NCBI RefSeq assembly: GCF_000702905.1
Contig: NZ_JNKR01000002.1
Coordinates: forward strand, 62,001-126,000
Length of the DNA stretch: 64,000 nucleotides
Direction of reading: 5' to 3'
From: Mitsuokella jalaludinii DSM 13811
GTDB taxonomy: Bacteria > Bacillota > Negativicutes > Selenomonadales > Selenomonadaceae
Each line of letters begins with the position of its first letter. The stretch's first letter is position 1. The notes under the pieces were generated by a model. It did no database searches. It was not told where the DNA came from and worked only from the letters and a program-made list of their open reading frames with translations. Position numbers and translations under genes: made by a program. Shown here in pieces: positions 53,913-63,182 of this stretch.

Positions 53913-54066
53913 ACTGTCACCACCTTTTACTTATTGCCGTTTTTTTCATTATAGCACATCCGAAGGGTGCCGCGCCTCTGGTAATGCGTCTATGGTGTGC
54001 CAGAGTGCCGGGGACTCTGACGACACATCTTTTGGTATGATATAAGAAGAAAATGAGGTGTTCGAC

Positions 54067-54330
54067 ATGGTCAACTTCAAATGGAATCAGAAACGCGCGC
54101 TCGAAGTCGCGAAGGAAGACGGCATTTCTATTGGTGAGGCACGTGGCGAAGCGCGTGGAGAGGCACGTGGAGAGGTGCGTGGTAAGCTGATTGGCGAACG
54201 CAATGCCATGATGAAAGTCGCGCTGTCGCTCTTGAAGAAGGGACTTCCTGTAGGTGTCATCACCGATTCGACCAACCTCTCACTCGAGGAAGTCCGCAAG
54301 ATTGCCAAGGATAATGGACTGGCTTTCTGA
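54067..54330 (+). CDS. small RpnS-like protein (C-terminal tail of Rpn nucleases), copy A
   Basis: 87-residue protein corresponding only to the C-terminal domain of Rpn-type nucleases; no nuclease domain precedes it. After MVNFKWNQKRALEVAKEDGI there are tandem four-residue repeats (GEAR three times, then GEVR, GKLI) encoded by 12-base units. A helical end follows (LLKKGLPVGVITDSTNLSLE, then EVRKIAKDNG). Known RpnS proteins are made from internal starts of rpn genes, carry variable four-residue repeats in a dimerising helix, and block the toxic full-length protein. GAGGTG at 54055-54060 favours ATG 54067. A stand-alone antitoxin or orphan role is inferred. Confidence 0.8.
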   Translation: MVNFKWNQKRALEVAKEDGISIGEARGEARGEARGEVRGKLIGERNAMMKVALSLLKKGLPVGVITDSTNLSLEEVRKIAKDNGLAF

Positions 54331-54366
54331 CAGCGCGCAACGGTGAACAACGAATGCATAAAAAAT

Positions 54367-54405
54367 CAAGAGGCATAGGAGTCGTAGCTCTTATGCCTCT
54401 TGTTG
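54367..54405. terminator. bidirectional terminator of copy A
   Basis: CAAGAGGCATA pairs with TATGCCTCTTG; the same hairpin ends the other two copies. Confidence 0.85.
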
Positions 54406-54461
54406 TCTTTGTGATGAACTCCCCCAAGGGGATGGTTGCGGTATTGCCCATCGCGCGGCGC

Positions 54462-54548
54462 TCAGAACTGCCAGTTGATGCCGACGTTGCCCTGCCATTT
54501 TTTATGCCAGTCGCTGCCAAAGGAGCGCTGGAAATTGTTGACGATGCA
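54462..54548 (-). pseudogene. C-terminal remnant of an outer-membrane beta-barrel protein
   Basis: About 28 codons ending GINWQF and a stop give alternating hydrophobic residues and a terminal phenylalanine, the signature of the last strand of a BAM-inserted barrel. Nothing of the gene remains upstream because the HigBA operon begins there. Low information; the barrel type is unknown. Confidence 0.55.
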
Positions 54549-54577
54549 CAATCTGGGATCTAGCAACATTCTAGGGG

Positions 54578-54606
54578 TTGACATTATGAGATATATCTCA
54601 TAAAAT
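54578..54606 (+). promoter_or_regulatory. higBA promoter with operator between -35 and -10
   Basis: TTGACA (54578-54583), 17-base spacer, TAAAAT (54601-54606). The spacer and first bases of the -10 form a perfect 20-bp palindrome, TTATGAGATATATCTCATAA (54584-54603), an ideal site for autorepression by the HigA-type antitoxin. Confidence 0.85.
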
Positions 54607-54623
54607 ATAAACAGGAGGAGTAT

Positions 54624-54977
54624 ATGAGATTTGAAGTCAAATTTTATGAAACAACAGACGGCAAGAAACCCGTAGAAGATTTTTTATTGAGTCTAGAGAA
54701 CAAAATGCAGGCTAAGATGGTGCAGATGATGGAACTCTTGGAAGAAAAGGGGACCGACTTGCGTGAACCTTACACAAAGCCTTTGGGCGATGGTATTTTT
54801 GAGCTGAGATGTAAGCAATCTAGCAACATCTCTCGTGCTCTTTTCTTCTTCTTTCTCGGTGGTAAAATCATTATAACAAATGGATTCATCAAAAAGACCA
54901 ACAAGACACCACCAAAGGAAATCCGCTTAGCAAAAGAGCGGCGTGCAGACTACATACAGCAACAGGAGGATTTATGA
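54624..54977 (+). CDS. HigB/Gp49-type toxin of a type II toxin-antitoxin system
   Basis: 117-residue RelE-superfamily protein of the phage Gp49-like (HigB) group, expected to cleave mRNA on the ribosome. YETTDGKKPVEDFL near residue 8, KPLGDGIFELR near 52 and the strand FFFFLGGKIIITNGFIKKTNK near 73 are family features. GGAGGAG precedes the ATG. The stop overlaps the antitoxin start by four bases. Toxin-first order is typical of higBA. Confidence 0.9.
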   Translation: MRFEVKFYETTDGKKPVEDFLLSLENKMQAKMVQMMELLEEKGTDLREPYTKPLGDGIFELRCKQSSNISRALFFFFLGGKIIITNGFIKKTNKTPPKEIRLAKERRADYIQQQEDL

Positions 54978-55270
54978 TGAAAAGCTTACAAGAATTTAAA
55001 GCCGAGCGAATGAAGGACCCAGCATTTGCAAAAGCATACGCTGAATCGGAGCCTGAGATCAACATCATCCGCGCAATTGTCGAGGCTCGCAACCGGCAGA
55101 ACCTTACGCAAAAGGAATTGGCCGAAAAGACGGGTATTGCACAGACTGAGATCAGCCGCATTGAGAGCGGTGCCCGCAACCCATCCTTGAAGATCCTGCA
55201 ACGGTTAGCAGATGGCATGGGAATGGTTCTCAAGGTTTCGTTCGAGCCAAAGAGGGAGATACATGCATAA
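54974..55270 (+). CDS. HigA-type XRE antitoxin
   Basis: 98-residue DNA-binding antitoxin. An N-terminal helix (SLQEFKAERMKDPAFAKAY) that should bind the toxin is followed by a helix-turn-helix (QNLTQKELAEKTGIAQTEIS then RIESGARNPSLKIL). It would neutralise HigB and, with it, bind the palindrome at 54584-54603. Its stop overlaps the next start (TAATG), so the RpnS-like copy B is probably co-translated as a third gene. Confidence 0.9.
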   Translation: MMKSLQEFKAERMKDPAFAKAYAESEPEINIIRAIVEARNRQNLTQKELAEKTGIAQTEISRIESGARNPSLKILQRLADGMGMVLKVSFEPKREIHA

Positions 55271-55590
55271 TGTTCGACATGGTCAACTTCAAATGGGATC
55301 AGAAACGCGCACTCGAAGTCGCGAAGGAAGACGGTATTTCTATCGGCGAGGCACGCGGAGAAGCACGTGGAGAGGCACGTGGTGAACGCAATGACATGAT
55401 GAAAGTCGCACTGTCACTCTTGAAGAAAGGGCTTCCTGTAGGTGTCATCACCGATTCGACCAACCTCTCACTCGAAGAAGTCCGCAAGATTGCCAAGGAT
55501 AACGGGCTGGCTTTCTGACGGAGCGCGACGGTGAATAACAATTGCATAAAAAAACAAGAGGCATAGGAGCCGTGGCCCCTATGCCTCTTG
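55269..55590 (+). repeat. RpnS-tail repeat unit, copy B
   Basis: Same module as at 54058-54405 with its terminator (CAAGAGGCATAGG / CCTATGCCTCTTG, 55555-55590), which here also serves the autotransporter gene on the other strand. Confidence 0.85.
55270..55518 (+). CDS. small RpnS-like protein, copy B, third gene of the higBA operon
   Basis: 82-residue paralogue of copy A with fewer four-residue repeats (GEAR three times then GERN), otherwise nearly identical (LLKKGLPVGVITDSTNLSLE, then EVRKIAKDNG at the end). It starts with ATG overlapping the antitoxin stop; GGGAGA lies upstream. The repeat number difference between A and B is the kind of variation described for RpnS helices. Whether it is a functional antitoxin or a passenger of the duplicated module is open. 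Confidence 0.78.
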   Translation: MFDMVNFKWDQKRALEVAKEDGISIGEARGEARGEARGERNDMMKVALSLLKKGLPVGVITDSTNLSLEEVRKIAKDNGLAF

Positions 55591-55620
55591 CTGTACCCGC
55601 TTGCAGCAAGGTATGCGATG

Positions 55621-58600
55621 TTATTTGGTTGCTGCTTTCTTGTCCTGCGCGGCGAGGAGCTGCTGGACCATGGCCTTGAGTTCCTTGATCTCGCTGTCCT
55701 GCTTCTTGAGCTGATCGTCCTGACGGGCGACGGTTGCGCGCAGCTCCGTGATCTCCTGCGTGGAGCCCGGGCGGATCTGGGATTTGCCCTTCGGGCCGAA
55801 CTTGAAGCTGACGCCTGCATTGATCATGTTCTCGCCATTGCCGAAATTCGTGCCGAGGCTGAACATCGTGTCCTCATCCGGGCGGTAGAACGCGCCGACA
55901 GCCGCACTGTTGGCATCGCGGTAGTTGCCGTAGCCAACAGCGAAGTCCCACTTGTCATCCGGGTCGAAATCAAGAGGATGCAGCGCCGCCAGAGCCGCCG
56001 CACCGGCACCGACCTTGTTGATCTTGCTGTCGAGGTTGTTCACACGGCCATTGATGTTCGTGATGCTCGAAGCATTCGAAGCCACCTGGCTGTCGAGCGC
56101 CGAGATGTTCTCACCAGCCGTGTTGGACGATTTCACGTACGTGCCATCCTTCTGGACGCGCGTCTCGTTGTAGACCGTGCCTGCATTGACGGCAGCCTTT
56201 GAGCCTTTCTCGATGGAAGCATCTTCATTGACCGTAAGATGATCTGTCGTGATGTTCTTAGCCGTTGCATTATTGACTTGGATACCTTTGTTCAGAGATA
56301 CCTGGTAATTTGCCGGTTTTGTCGGATCTGTCTCTGTATTTGTCACAGTGATATTCGAGCCATCGCCCTTGACAGTACCTACGCCACCATCTTTGCCATC
56401 CTTACCATTTTTACCAGCAGGCCCTTGTGCACCGGTATCACCTTTATCACCCTTCGGACCTTGGGCTCCAGTTGCACCGGTATCACCTTTGTCGCCCTTG
56501 TCTCCTTTCGGGCCTTGTTCACCAGTTGCACCGGTATCACCTTTGTCGCCCTTGTCTCCTTTCGGGCCTTGTTCACCAGTTGCACCGGTATCACCTTTAT
56601 CACCCTTGTCTCCTTTCGGGCCTTGTTCGCCAGTTGCACCGGTATCACCTTTGTCGCCCTTGTCTCCTTTCAGGCCTTGTTCACCAGTTGCACCGGTATC
56701 GCCTTTGTCTCCCTTGTCTCCTTTCGGGCCTTTGAAGTCCGGATCATCTTTCAGAGCATCTTTATCCAACGTAACCAATACTCGTTTGTCGCCTTCACTG
56801 CCGACTTCCCGTGCTAACAAGCCATCGCCAAAGTCAAACTGCAGATTGCTGATCGTCATATCCTTTGCAATCTGGTTTCCGCCTGTATACACACCACTGG
56901 CAACTTTACCGCCGGTATAGATCTGAACAGGCAGATTCATCACGGCCTTCAGCTGTGCCACGTTAACTGCATCCGTATCGTTGAAGCCAGCAGCTAAGTT
57001 GGTAATCTGACGGGTAATAGCCGGGGTAGTTACGTTATCGTCTTTATCCTTTTCTTCTGCACGACCGACCGAAACTGCAGCCGCCGTCGATTTCCAGGTA
57101 GAAGACGTATCAGTCGATGCCTTCTTTGTAGCGGGATCATAACCAACTGCATCCTTATCGATAGCAGCTACAGAACCGGCACCGATGGCTACACCGCCTG
57201 TTTTTTCGACGTTGGCATTATGGCCGAGAATCGTTGCATCAGTTACCGATGTCGTCATCTTGCTGTCAGCCGAGCCGATGATGACAGAGCCATTTGCGCC
57301 TGTCACTTCACGGTTATCACCGAGGAGCTGGATGTTATCTGTCGTCTTGACGACGTTCCTGGAACCCAGTACGGATACGCCATGAGACGAATCAACGGTA
57401 TTGCCGATACCGGAAACCACAACAGCTCCCTTGGCATCCTGCTGAAGTTTCCCCTTCAATGTATCCTGAAGCGCTTTGGCCGAATCGCCGCCTTCCGTCG
57501 GAGCCTCGATATCGGTCAGCGAATTGGTGACTTCATTGCCCGCACCGAGAATGGTCGTATTGTTGGAGTTGGCAATCCGGTTGGCCGTACCGACGATGCT
57601 GCTAGCCACGCCCGAATTATCAGCTGCGTCCTTATCCTGATATTTATACGATTCAATGCTGTTCAGCGAACCATCTACGGTAGCTGCGAAGTTCTGAATC
57701 TTCTTCTTGGCCGTCGTAGCGGAATAAGCACCCGTTACAGTAGCGAACGTGCCGTTGTTGAAGCTATTCGTGCCAAGGGTCGTCATATTGATGTTATTGA
57801 AGTTATCGCGCAGTTTCTGAGAATCTGTACCATCTACGTCTATATCGGCAATGGCCCCTTTATACATATGAGAACCGACCATCAGACTGCCTGTACGAGC
57901 AAAGCTGTTACGGCCAATGGCAATACCACCGGCTTCATTTCCCGGTGTAAGCGGAATGTTATTGTCATCAAACTTAGTCTGGCCAAAGGCCCAGTTCTTC
58001 TCGGTATTGCCGTACATATTTTCAACACGTGCATTCTGGCCAAGGGCAATGCTGCCACCCTGATTAACATAGGAATCAACATGGGAATCCTGGCCGATGG
58101 CTACATCACCGCCGTTGGCATTCGGTTTGCCGTCGCTGGAACGAATCCAGGAGCCAGTACCAATAGCGACACCGTTAGCACTGCCTGCATAAGCCGTATC
58201 GCCGATGGCAACGGCACTCGCCTTATCTGCGTTTGCTCCAACACCTGCCGCCAGAGCATTAGTTCCGGTAGCGCCATCATTCTTGTAATTCTTTGCAGTA
58301 GAATCCGTGGAATTTACACTGTAGAAATGCGTCTGAGCCGCTTTCAACTGAGCCACATTGACGGCATCCGTATCCTGCGTGCCAGCTGCGACGTTAGTAA
58401 TCTGGCGGGTAATGTTCTTAGAAGCATCGCCGACGGAAACGGCAGCCGCCGTCGATTTCCAAATGCCGCTTGTATCTTTATTGCGGTCAGTTCCAGACGG
58501 ATCATAACCAACTGCATCCTTATCAACAGAAGCTACCGAACCTGCACCAAGGGCCACACCGCCATCGACCTTAGCATTGGCATTATGACCGACGATGACA

Positions 58601-59796
58601 GTGTCTTTATTTGAGGTTGTGATTGGCGTCTTTTCGTCGGCATTGCCGATAATCACGTTATGGGTCTGGCCTTCTGCTACGGTGCGATAATCGCCGATGA
58701 CCGTATTGGAATCAGCGCCCTTATTGATCGTAACACTCTGACCCAGTACCTTTACATGGCTGGCATCGGTAATGGAACTGTTGAACCCATCCAGATAGTT
58801 GTACTGTACTTTCTTGTAAGTCGTCGATTTCATGGAGTTCCCCACGCCCATGATTTGTGAATTCTGGGTCTTTTCAGCGCTGTTGCCACCGCCGATGACC
58901 AGGGTAGCACCGCCTGCACTGCTGGCAACACCATCCATCAGAGCTTTCTGCATATCGGCAGCAGATTTGAACAATGAACTGTAAGCAGACGTATCAAATG
59001 AAGCGATGGAGTCTTTGACGCTATTGCCTGCGCCCATAACGATGGCCCCATTGCTGTTGGTCACTTTGTTGGCCGTACCGGAAATCATATTGGCTACACC
59101 ACTAGTAGAGTCATAACTTGATAAAGACTCATTAGAATTAAAGGTGCCGATAACTGTAGCAAAAGCATTTTTTGTAGCATTGCCCGTATCAGAAAGACCG
59201 GCCGCTTCATACTGATTAGTCTGTACATTATAGCTGCCAATGGTAGTAGCAAAACCGCCGCCGGTATAGGAATTGGTCCCCAAAGTAGTGGAAGCTACAC
59301 CAAACTGACGCAGTTGGTCTGCTGTGGTATCACCGATGGAAATCTTATTTTCTGCCAGTGTATGAGCACCGATTTCGATGGAGCCTGTACGGGCATACGA
59401 ATTCGTTCCTATTGCAATAGCCTCGGGTAAATTCTTTTTAGCATGTTCATTCGAGTGAATATTCCAGCCCGTCTGGACTAAGCCATGCCACATAGTGGGG
59501 TCTGCTTTTTCTCCAAACGAAAGCATAGATTCCTGTGTCCCGCCGCCGATAAAGACCTTGGCATTCTTGCCGATGGCAATATTGGTCCCATCGTTGACCG
59601 GACTGATGTCGTAAGCAATGGGCTGGGCCCCTTTGTCCACAATATCCTTGTCCGCGGCCCAGCTGATGCCTGGCGTGCATCCCCACGTCAGGGCACCGGC
59701 GGTGAGAGCCATGGCGATGATGCGGGCCGGGGCTGGGGTGCTATGGTCGATAGACGGTTGACTGCTCTTGTGGTTCCGCTTAGCAAGTTCGGACAC
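55621..59796 (-). CDS. YadA-type trimeric autotransporter adhesin with collagen-like region
   Basis: Surface adhesin, 1391 codons from a GTG. Signal region IIAMALTAGALTWG...ISWA near residues 27-47; then two similar passenger halves of YadA-head repeats (AIG-type, for example AIAIGTNSYARTGSIEIGAH), each closed by a neck module ITRQITN.AAG...DAVNVAQLKA; a collagen-like stretch of about 38 Gly-X-Y triplets at about 1021-1136; a stalk; and a YadA membrane anchor from about 1270 (ALHPLDFDPDD...VGYGNYRD...AGVSFKFG). Unusually, a coiled coil of about 50 residues follows the anchor. The expected ATG at 59851 with a good ribosome site is out of frame by one base, so this gene may be poorly expressed or broken. 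Confidence 0.85.
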   Translation of the reverse strand: MSELAKRNHKSSQPSIDHSTPAPARIIAMALTAGALTWGCTPGISWAADKDIVDKGAQPIAYDISPVNDGTNIAIGKNAKVFIGGGTQESMLSFGEKADPTMWHGLVQTGWNIHSNEHAKKNLPEAIAIGTNSYARTGSIEIGAHTLAENKISIGDTTADQLRQFGVASTTLGTNSYTGGGFATTIGSYNVQTNQYEAAGLSDTGNATKNAFATVIGTFNSNESLSSYDSTSGVANMISGTANKVTNSNGAIVMGAGNSVKDSIASFDTSAYSSLFKSAADMQKALMDGVASSAGGATLVIGGGNSAEKTQNSQIMGVGNSMKSTTYKKVQYNYLDGFNSSITDASHVKVLGQSVTINKGADSNTVIGDYRTVAEGQTHNVIIGNADEKTPITTSNKDTVIVGHNANAKVDGGVALGAGSVASVDKDAVGYDPSGTDRNKDTSGIWKSTAAAVSVGDASKNITRQITNVAAGTQDTDAVNVAQLKAAQTHFYSVNSTDSTAKNYKNDGATGTNALAAGVGANADKASAVAIGDTAYAGSANGVAIGTGSWIRSSDGKPNANGGDVAIGQDSHVDSYVNQGGSIALGQNARVENMYGNTEKNWAFGQTKFDDNNIPLTPGNEAGGIAIGRNSFARTGSLMVGSHMYKGAIADIDVDGTDSQKLRDNFNNINMTTLGTNSFNNGTFATVTGAYSATTAKKKIQNFAATVDGSLNSIESYKYQDKDAADNSGVASSIVGTANRIANSNNTTILGAGNEVTNSLTDIEAPTEGGDSAKALQDTLKGKLQQDAKGAVVVSGIGNTVDSSHGVSVLGSRNVVKTTDNIQLLGDNREVTGANGSVIIGSADSKMTTSVTDATILGHNANVEKTGGVAIGAGSVAAIDKDAVGYDPATKKASTDTSSTWKSTAAAVSVGRAEEKDKDDNVTTPAITRQITNLAAGFNDTDAVNVAQLKAVMNLPVQIYTGGKVASGVYTGGNQIAKDMTISNLQFDFGDGLLAREVGSEGDKRVLVTLDKDALKDDPDFKGPKGDKGDKGDTGATGEQGLKGDKGDKGDTGATGEQGPKGDKGDKGDTGATGEQGPKGDKGDKGDTGATGEQGPKGDKGDKGDTGATGAQGPKGDKGDTGAQGPAGKNGKDGKDGGVGTVKGDGSNITVTNTETDPTKPANYQVSLNKGIQVNNATAKNITTDHLTVNEDASIEKGSKAAVNAGTVYNETRVQKDGTYVKSSNTAGENISALDSQVASNASSITNINGRVNNLDSKINKVGAGAAALAALHPLDFDPDDKWDFAVGYGNYRDANSAAVGAFYRPDEDTMFSLGTNFGNGENMINAGVSFKFGPKGKSQIRPGSTQEITELRATVARQDDQLKKQDSEIKELKAMVQQLLAAQDKKAATK
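56471..56738 (-). repeat. 54-bp tandem repeats encoding the collagen-like region
   Basis: Five units start at 56471, 56525, 56579, 56633 and 56687 with only a few substitutions, each coding for GPKGDKGDKGDTGATGEQ. Exact 54-bp spacing makes strain-to-strain length change likely. Confidence 0.9.
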
Positions 59797-62512: not shown

Positions 62513-62541
62513 TTGCGCGTACCTTTCCGCCGTGCTATAAT
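62513..62541 (+). promoter_or_regulatory. promoter of the antisense antitoxin RNA
   Basis: TTGCGC (62513-62518), 17-base spacer, TATAAT (62536-62541) with TGC before the -10 (extended -10). Confidence 0.8.
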
Positions 62542-62547
62542 AGACAT

Positions 62548-62632
62548 AGAAAAAGAGGCCACCGTAGACGGTTGTCCTCAACTGTTGATCAAAAAGATGA
62601 CCGTATAGTTGTGAGCTTGGCGGTCATTTTTT
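62548..62632 (+). ncRNA. candidate antisense RNA antitoxin (type I system)
   Basis: From the expected start near 62548 the RNA runs about 85 bases, complementary to the 3' untranslated end and last 18 or so codons of the toxin gene on the other strand. It ends at the hairpin ATGACCG (62597-62603) / CGGTCAT (62621-62627) followed by six T. Convergent overlap at the 3' end with a strong dedicated promoter is the layout of TxpA/RatA- and BsrG/SR4-type systems. Confidence 0.7.
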
Positions 62633-62730
62633 GTGCTTCTGTCTTTCCCGAGAGCGTAGCCCAGAGAAAAGCAAGCAATCGCAAATCCGAGGACATTCAT
62701 GACAATGCCATAGAGCGTTCCTTCGTTCAT
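62578..62730 (-). CDS. small hydrophobic type I toxin candidate, 50 residues
   Basis: Very short gene: MNEGTLYGIVMNVLGFAIAC, then FSLGYALGKDRS and a polar, tyrosine-containing tail ending TVIFLINS. Residues 6-27 form one membrane helix followed by charged residues, as in Fst/TxpA/holin-like toxins that damage the membrane. AAGGAGG at 62739-62745 lies eight bases before ATG 62730; an ATG at 62736 is too close. The mRNA, from an extended -10 at 62891-62896, has a 5' hairpin, a 5' arm (62834-62860) able to pair with its 3' end (62557-62579), and a terminator there. I cannot assign a named family. Confidence 0.72.
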   Translation of the reverse strand: MNEGTLYGIVMNVLGFAIACFSLGYALGKDRSTKNDRQAHNYTVIFLINS

Positions 62731-62833
62731 GCGCATCCCCTCCTTCCAGTTGAGATCTGCCGCAAAGCAACAGTCCGCTGTGGAGGGCGTACAAAAATCC
62801 CTCCATCGTCAAACATCAAAGTAATCTGATAGA

Positions 62834-62899
62834 GAGGACAACCGCCTACCGTTGGTGGCCATCGGGAGCAAGCATGCTCCCGATTCTTTTATTATAGCA
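62834..62899 (-). promoter_or_regulatory. toxin promoter, 5' hairpin and 5' pairing arm
   Basis: On the minus strand TGC-TATAAT (62899-62891) is an extended -10. Downstream comes the hairpin ATCGGGAGCA/TGCTCCCGAT (62861-62884), then the arm 62860-62834, which pairs with 62579-62557 over 22 base pairs with one four-base bulge and one mismatch. Confidence 0.68.
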
Positions 62900-62904
62900 T
62901 ACGA

Positions 62905-63110
62905 TTTCGGCAAAGAGAATGCATCATCAACAACATCAAGAGCTACAGCATCTTCGTCCAGAAGGTCCGCGATGGCCTGCAAAACGGGCTCGAACTCAGG
63001 ACGGCTATCCGTCAGGCCATCACTTACCTGTAAGCGTCATCACCGATTCTACCAGCCTCTCACTCGAAGAAGTCCGCAAGATTGCCAGGGATAACGGGCT
63101 GGCTTTCTGA
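62905..63110 (+). pseudogene. decayed Rpn-type nuclease gene (RpnL body fragment plus RpnS tail)
   Basis: Codons 62905-63033 read ...ECIINNIKSYSIFVQKVRDG...AIRQAITYL then stop, matching the region after the nuclease domain of Rpn family proteins (YSxFVxKVR). From 63036 another frame gives VITDSTSLSLEEVRKIARDN to the end, the tail seen in copies A and B. The part between, including the four-residue repeats, is deleted, and the nuclease domain upstream is gone, replaced by the type I toxin locus. Confidence 0.75.
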
Positions 63111-63182
63111 CAGAGCGCAACGGTGAACAACGAATGCATAAAAAATCAAGAGGCATAGGAGCCGCAACTCCTATGCCTCTTG
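63036..63182 (+). repeat. RpnS-tail repeat unit, copy C (5'-truncated)
   Basis: Last 24 codons, spacer and terminator (CAAGAGGCATAGGAG / CTCCTATGCCTCTTG, 63147-63182) match copies A and B almost base for base. Confidence 0.85.

Follow-up and report, generated by a model that had tools for sequence, protein, structure and literature searches.

Two small genes of Mitsuokella jalaludinii DSM 13811, designated here rpnS-A and rpnS-B (copies A and B), descend from an rpn gene, and the genome assembly holds no nuclease that matches them. Both are almost certainly RpnS-derived genes, that is, derivatives of the antitoxin that blocks the nuclease toxin RpnL (Zhong et al., PMC10327210). On balance they are probably functional orphan antitoxin genes, which is the most likely reading, and the main rival to it is that they are decaying leftovers. 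The locus illustrates concretely how a gene-within-gene antitoxin has become a gene in its own right because the toxin around it was lost, and a single locus supplies both the parental and the derived form. Experiments can now ask whether orphan RpnS proteins shield cells from RpnL nucleases of foreign origin, and whether the number of repeats determines the specificity of that shielding. The two genes lie in the window, the whole 64,000-nucleotide stretch analysed, as follows.

54067–54330, + strand: rpnS-A, orphan RpnS-like protein of 87 aa with five 4-aa repeats
55270–55518, + strand: rpnS-B, orphan RpnS-like protein of 82 aa with three 4-aa repeats

As a preliminary description of this DNA had proposed, both genes encode only the C-terminal tail of Rpn. 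Their matches to TIGR01784 are confined to positions 204–273 of 273 (A, 26.7 bits, E 4.4e-6; B, 25.2 bits, E 1.3e-5), and both score under the whole-protein cut-off of 52.1 bits because only the tail is present, as expected. The RpnS-like nature assigned to them earlier is borne out by this homology together with a syntenic full-length ortholog, the repeat anatomy, an internal start and a fold match to 7TH0. Pfam matches to PASTA, HTH_15 and AbiEi-type families scored under their cut-offs and were rejected. The 12-base repeat units are present at 54132–54182 in A and 55351–55386 in B; the expected five are found in A (GEAR GEAR GEAR GEVR GKLI), but B has three (GEAR three times, followed by GER) and not four. 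Repeat number thus varies, with five units in A and three each in B and in the tail of Mitsuokella multacida. Similarly, the NTG-TTC-GAC-ATG motif taken to mark a shared start occurs in both copies, but translation most likely begins at ATG 54067 in A and at ATG 55270 in B. The GTG at 54058, from which the listed ORF of A (54058–54330) counts 90 aa, ranks under ATG 54067, which is preceded by GAGG (54055–54058) at 8-nt spacing. Ribosome-site sequences can be read for A, for B and for the M. multacida tail. At 22 residues past ATG 54067 in A and 25 past ATG 55270 in B, the two copies fall just outside the residue range of the proteins surveyed by Zhong et al. (PMC10327210), a range that is descriptive and not defining.

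The parent of these tails is known, because M. multacida DSM 20544, the closest to the host among the genomes compared, carries a full-length rpn gene (297 aa; contig L010, 3356–4249) at the matching chromosomal locus, flanked, as in the host, by the LysR-type regulator and the trimeric autotransporter. A related RpnL tail therefore exists in the lineage. The nuclease region of this gene matches PF04754 (21.4 bits, cut-off 21) and TIGR01784 (positions 63–273, 43.7 bits, under the cut-off of 52.1), and A and B each share about 90% identity with its tail (91% for A). Within it, GAGG-TGTTTGAC-ATG provides a ribosome site and a start codon for the tail alone at 8-nt spacing, and would fit the internal start expected for RpnS. 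The M. multacida gene has the tail, the locus, the promoter region and the internal start in common with A and B; unlike them, it has a nuclease domain.

The elements around copy A, two of them retained from the ancestral gene, are listed here.

54005–54046, + strand: retained promoter region of ancestral rpn (by identity to L010), with a putative extended -10 element (TGATATAAG) read from the sequence
54055–54069, + strand: GAGG-TGTTCGAC-ATG, the formerly internal RpnS ribosome site and rpnS-A start codon, same as GAGG-TGTTTGAC-ATG in L010
54367–54402, + strand: terminator hairpin of A, repeated after B and after a third copy

The 41 nt before A are 90% identical to L010 3293–3333, which lies just upstream of M. 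multacida rpn, and GAGG-TGTTCGAC-ATG comes directly after them. Since both elements now adjoin, A consists of the old rpn promoter region and the internal RpnS start, joined by a deletion. A predicted AAA-ATPase gene (PF09820; 52650–53912, - strand) lies between the LysR gene and A and is absent from that position in M. multacida.

Copy B follows a HigBA toxin-antitoxin pair, and its surroundings comprise the following.

54578–54606, + strand: promoter-like site of higB-higA-rpnS-B, TTGACA-17-TAAAAT, 11 of 12 positions, consensus match only
54624–54977, + strand: HigB/Gp49-type toxin gene (PF05973, E 2.7e-27)
54974–55270, + strand: HigA-type HTH antitoxin gene (PF01381, E 1.9e-16)
55553–55592, no strand assigned: terminator hairpin common to B and the convergent autotransporter gene

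Here rpn sequence is retained from TGTTCGAC onward and is preceded by the end of the HigA-type gene, so that B is without the GAGG internal ribosome site retained in A. The rpnS-B ATG overlaps the HigA stop codon (TAATG), with GGGAG 11 nt upstream. This overlap and the near-consensus promoter before higB add B to a higBA operon as its third gene. The order of a HigB-type toxin followed by an HTH antitoxin places the neighbours of B, and not A or B themselves, among HigBA systems. As in other HigBA operons (PF05973 with HTH_3), higB and higA are intact and here precede B; the difference is the Rpn-derived third gene added 3′ of higA.

A further rpn copy is found beyond the autotransporter gene.

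62942–63107, + strand: third, broken rpn copy, with 35 nuclease-region codons and the last 28 tail codons, matching L010 3864–3969 and 4162–4330

The earlier statement that the window contains no nuclease domain is thus almost correct, except that 35 nuclease-region codons persist at 62942–63047. The nuclease has been lost from all three host rpn copies; of the PD-(D/E)XK nuclease RpnL that characterizes a complete Rpn toxin-antitoxin locus, they preserve this 35-codon fragment only.

The host genome (2.41 Mb, 99.99% complete, 66 contigs) was searched for a full-length rpn gene with a matching tail, as had been recommended, using the tails and the M. multacida nuclease as queries. The sole genuine matches were A, B and the third copy. 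Because the genome is without an RpnL of matching tail, A and B are orphans, as was first suggested. A PF12784 profile search of the same genome was uninformative, since its controls gave no match either. At the start of host contig C12 (L013 1–738), an unrelated Rpn gene truncated by the end of the contig is followed by a stand-alone tail of 67 aa, which is unlike A and B and has about six fewer 4-aa repeats than its Rpn gene. The suggestion that A and B target RpnL proteins of phages or mobile elements did not find support, because tail and full-length queries returned no RpnL with an A/B-type tail from viral contigs, phages or plasmids. One viral match (L042, 44% over a short stretch within an unrelated 438-aa ORF) was set aside. 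Outside M. multacida, the searches yielded no candidate target RpnL, and the chromosomal rpn of sister Mitsuokella would be the best candidate target.

Stand-alone RpnS genes are already known, because rpnES (ypaA) and rpnCS have been published as separate genes (Zhong et al., PMC10327210) and five loci in the host's bacterial family (L019, L039, L045, L061, L069) carry a full-length rpn with an adjoining stand-alone tail. In E. coli MG1655, ypaA was confirmed to adjoin rpnE. Like A and B, the E. coli genes are small Rpn tails with variable 4-aa repeats, their own start codon and a parent rpn. They differ in lying downstream of rpn, whereas here RpnL is lost, A has inherited the former rpn promoter and B forms part of a higBA operon. 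What is new in Mitsuokella is the occurrence of orphan copies without RpnL, an in-situ deletion with the promoter kept, and capture by higBA; no description of these was found.

The predicted structure of the A protein is consistent with an RpnS fold. In the AlphaFold model (mean pLDDT 60, moderate in the helices and low over the repeats), a long first helix (residues 29–57) bears the repeats and is followed by two short ones (62–69 and 73–82). Foldseek against the PDB returned E. coli RpnA-S (7TH0) as the second-ranked match, with the highest probability among the matches listed (0.98; TM 0.84 on target, 0.9 Å rmsd over 42 alignment columns, target of 46 residues); with an E-value of 0.75, it is the probability and the superposition that carry this match. 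A profile built from 17 tails matched the 7TH0 sequence at E 0.0024, alongside some helix-turn-helix proteins of similar score. The A model and RpnA-S have in common the three-helix fold with repeats on the long first helix. They differ in that RpnA-S is made from inside rpnA, whereas A and B are separate genes with five or three repeats.

The most likely course of events begins with an ancestral Mitsuokella rpn whose product was a nuclease toxin, RpnL, and which also yielded the inhibitory tail, RpnS, through an internal start. In one copy, a deletion removed the nuclease and brought the rpn promoter directly before the ribosome site of the internal RpnS, so that the old promoter would now drive the antitoxin alone (A). 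A second tail became the last gene of the higBA operon, with its ribosome site within the 3′ end of HigA (B). If expressed, each protein should form a helical dimer through its repeat-bearing helix and block RpnL nucleases with a compatible tail, such as a sister Mitsuokella RpnL arriving by transfer, to the benefit of the host. The difference of five versus three repeats would direct A and B to different partners. An analogy weighs against the antitoxin reading: A has two more repeats than M. multacida RpnL, and in E. coli a single extra repeat abolished inhibition, leaving RpnCS unable to counteract RpnCLS (PMC10327210).

The main rival holds that A and B are paralogs that lost their nuclease, with tails persisting only because the loss was recent and any protein roleless. 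This is a real but lesser possibility, since rpn loci are prone to breakage and fusion (PMC10327210), the third copy at 62942–63107 is clearly broken, and a third Mitsuokella genome retains only a decayed tail end of about 28 last codons at a contig start (L113 1–122). Against decay stand the intact frames of A and B, which have plausible start sites, promoters and terminators, and the exact RpnS start site kept in A. Substitutions also argue against it. Start codon aside, 15 synonymous changes separate A from B but only 2 that alter an amino acid (dN/dS about 0.05–0.1, depending on method). In a neutral simulation about 12 of 17 changes were expected to alter an amino acid, and none of 100,000 runs gave two or fewer; the A/B protein was therefore constrained in the past. 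Over the stretch common to the third copy, private changes number two amino-acid and one synonymous in the third copy against none and three in A, although these numbers are small. Part of the constraint could predate the deletions, however, and the divergence may have accumulated while both tails were within full-length genes, which leaves selection on the stand-alone form unproven from one genome.

For B, a role as functional third component of higBA, with a helix-turn-helix-like fold that regulates the operon or modulates HigB or HigA, would agree with the TAATG overlap, the one promoter-like site before higB and the helix-turn-helix DNA-binding domains among the fold neighbours of the A model. 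It is improbable, given that A was retained without higBA and that all 25 other HigBA loci of the host's bacterial family lack a tail after HigA. On this count a recurring higBA-rpnS cassette was rejected as well, and the link between B and higBA is thus one event in one genome. It is highly unlikely that the chief role of stand-alone tails is to donate sequence for recombination that swaps the specificity tails of RpnL genes: two E. coli strains do carry a single rpnE fused to an S-type tail (L142, L143), but the host has no RpnL to receive the tails of A and B.

Repeat numbers elsewhere bear on what stand-alone tails pair with. In the family pairs and at C12, the stand-alone tail and the adjoining RpnL differ across the repeat region in every pair examined. 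Among the E. coli rpnE/ypaA loci counted (L107 and L125–L141, with both genes), RpnES and the adjoining RpnE differ in repeat number at 17 of 17 loci, or 7 of 7 distinct combinations. This does not amount to significant avoidance of equal numbers, because RpnL usually has more repeats and random pairing of the 7 combinations would yield only about 0.4 equal pairs. Should pairing depend on matching repeats, many RpnS proteins encoded on their own would not serve the adjoining RpnL. Stand-alone RpnS proteins might, tentatively and with considerable doubt, be generally shields against other RpnL variants and not antitoxins of the adjoining RpnL, toxin-free immunity genes that could be kept after toxin loss, since repeat numbers differ in every pair examined and the published RpnC test indicates that such differences should prevent pairing.

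The locus as a whole has been rearranged. Near-identical terminator hairpins at 54367–54402, 55553–55592 and 63140–63182, which follow every rpn copy and also precede the autotransporter, were probably the sites of recombination that reshuffled it. A 395-nt stretch (62531–62925), 90% identical to the M. multacida sequence between rpn and the autotransporter, is now displaced beyond the autotransporter and adjoins the third rpn remnant. The trimeric autotransporter itself (55621–59796, - strand) contains five 54-nt collagen-like repeats at 56453–56732 (GPKGDKGDKGDTGATGEQ).
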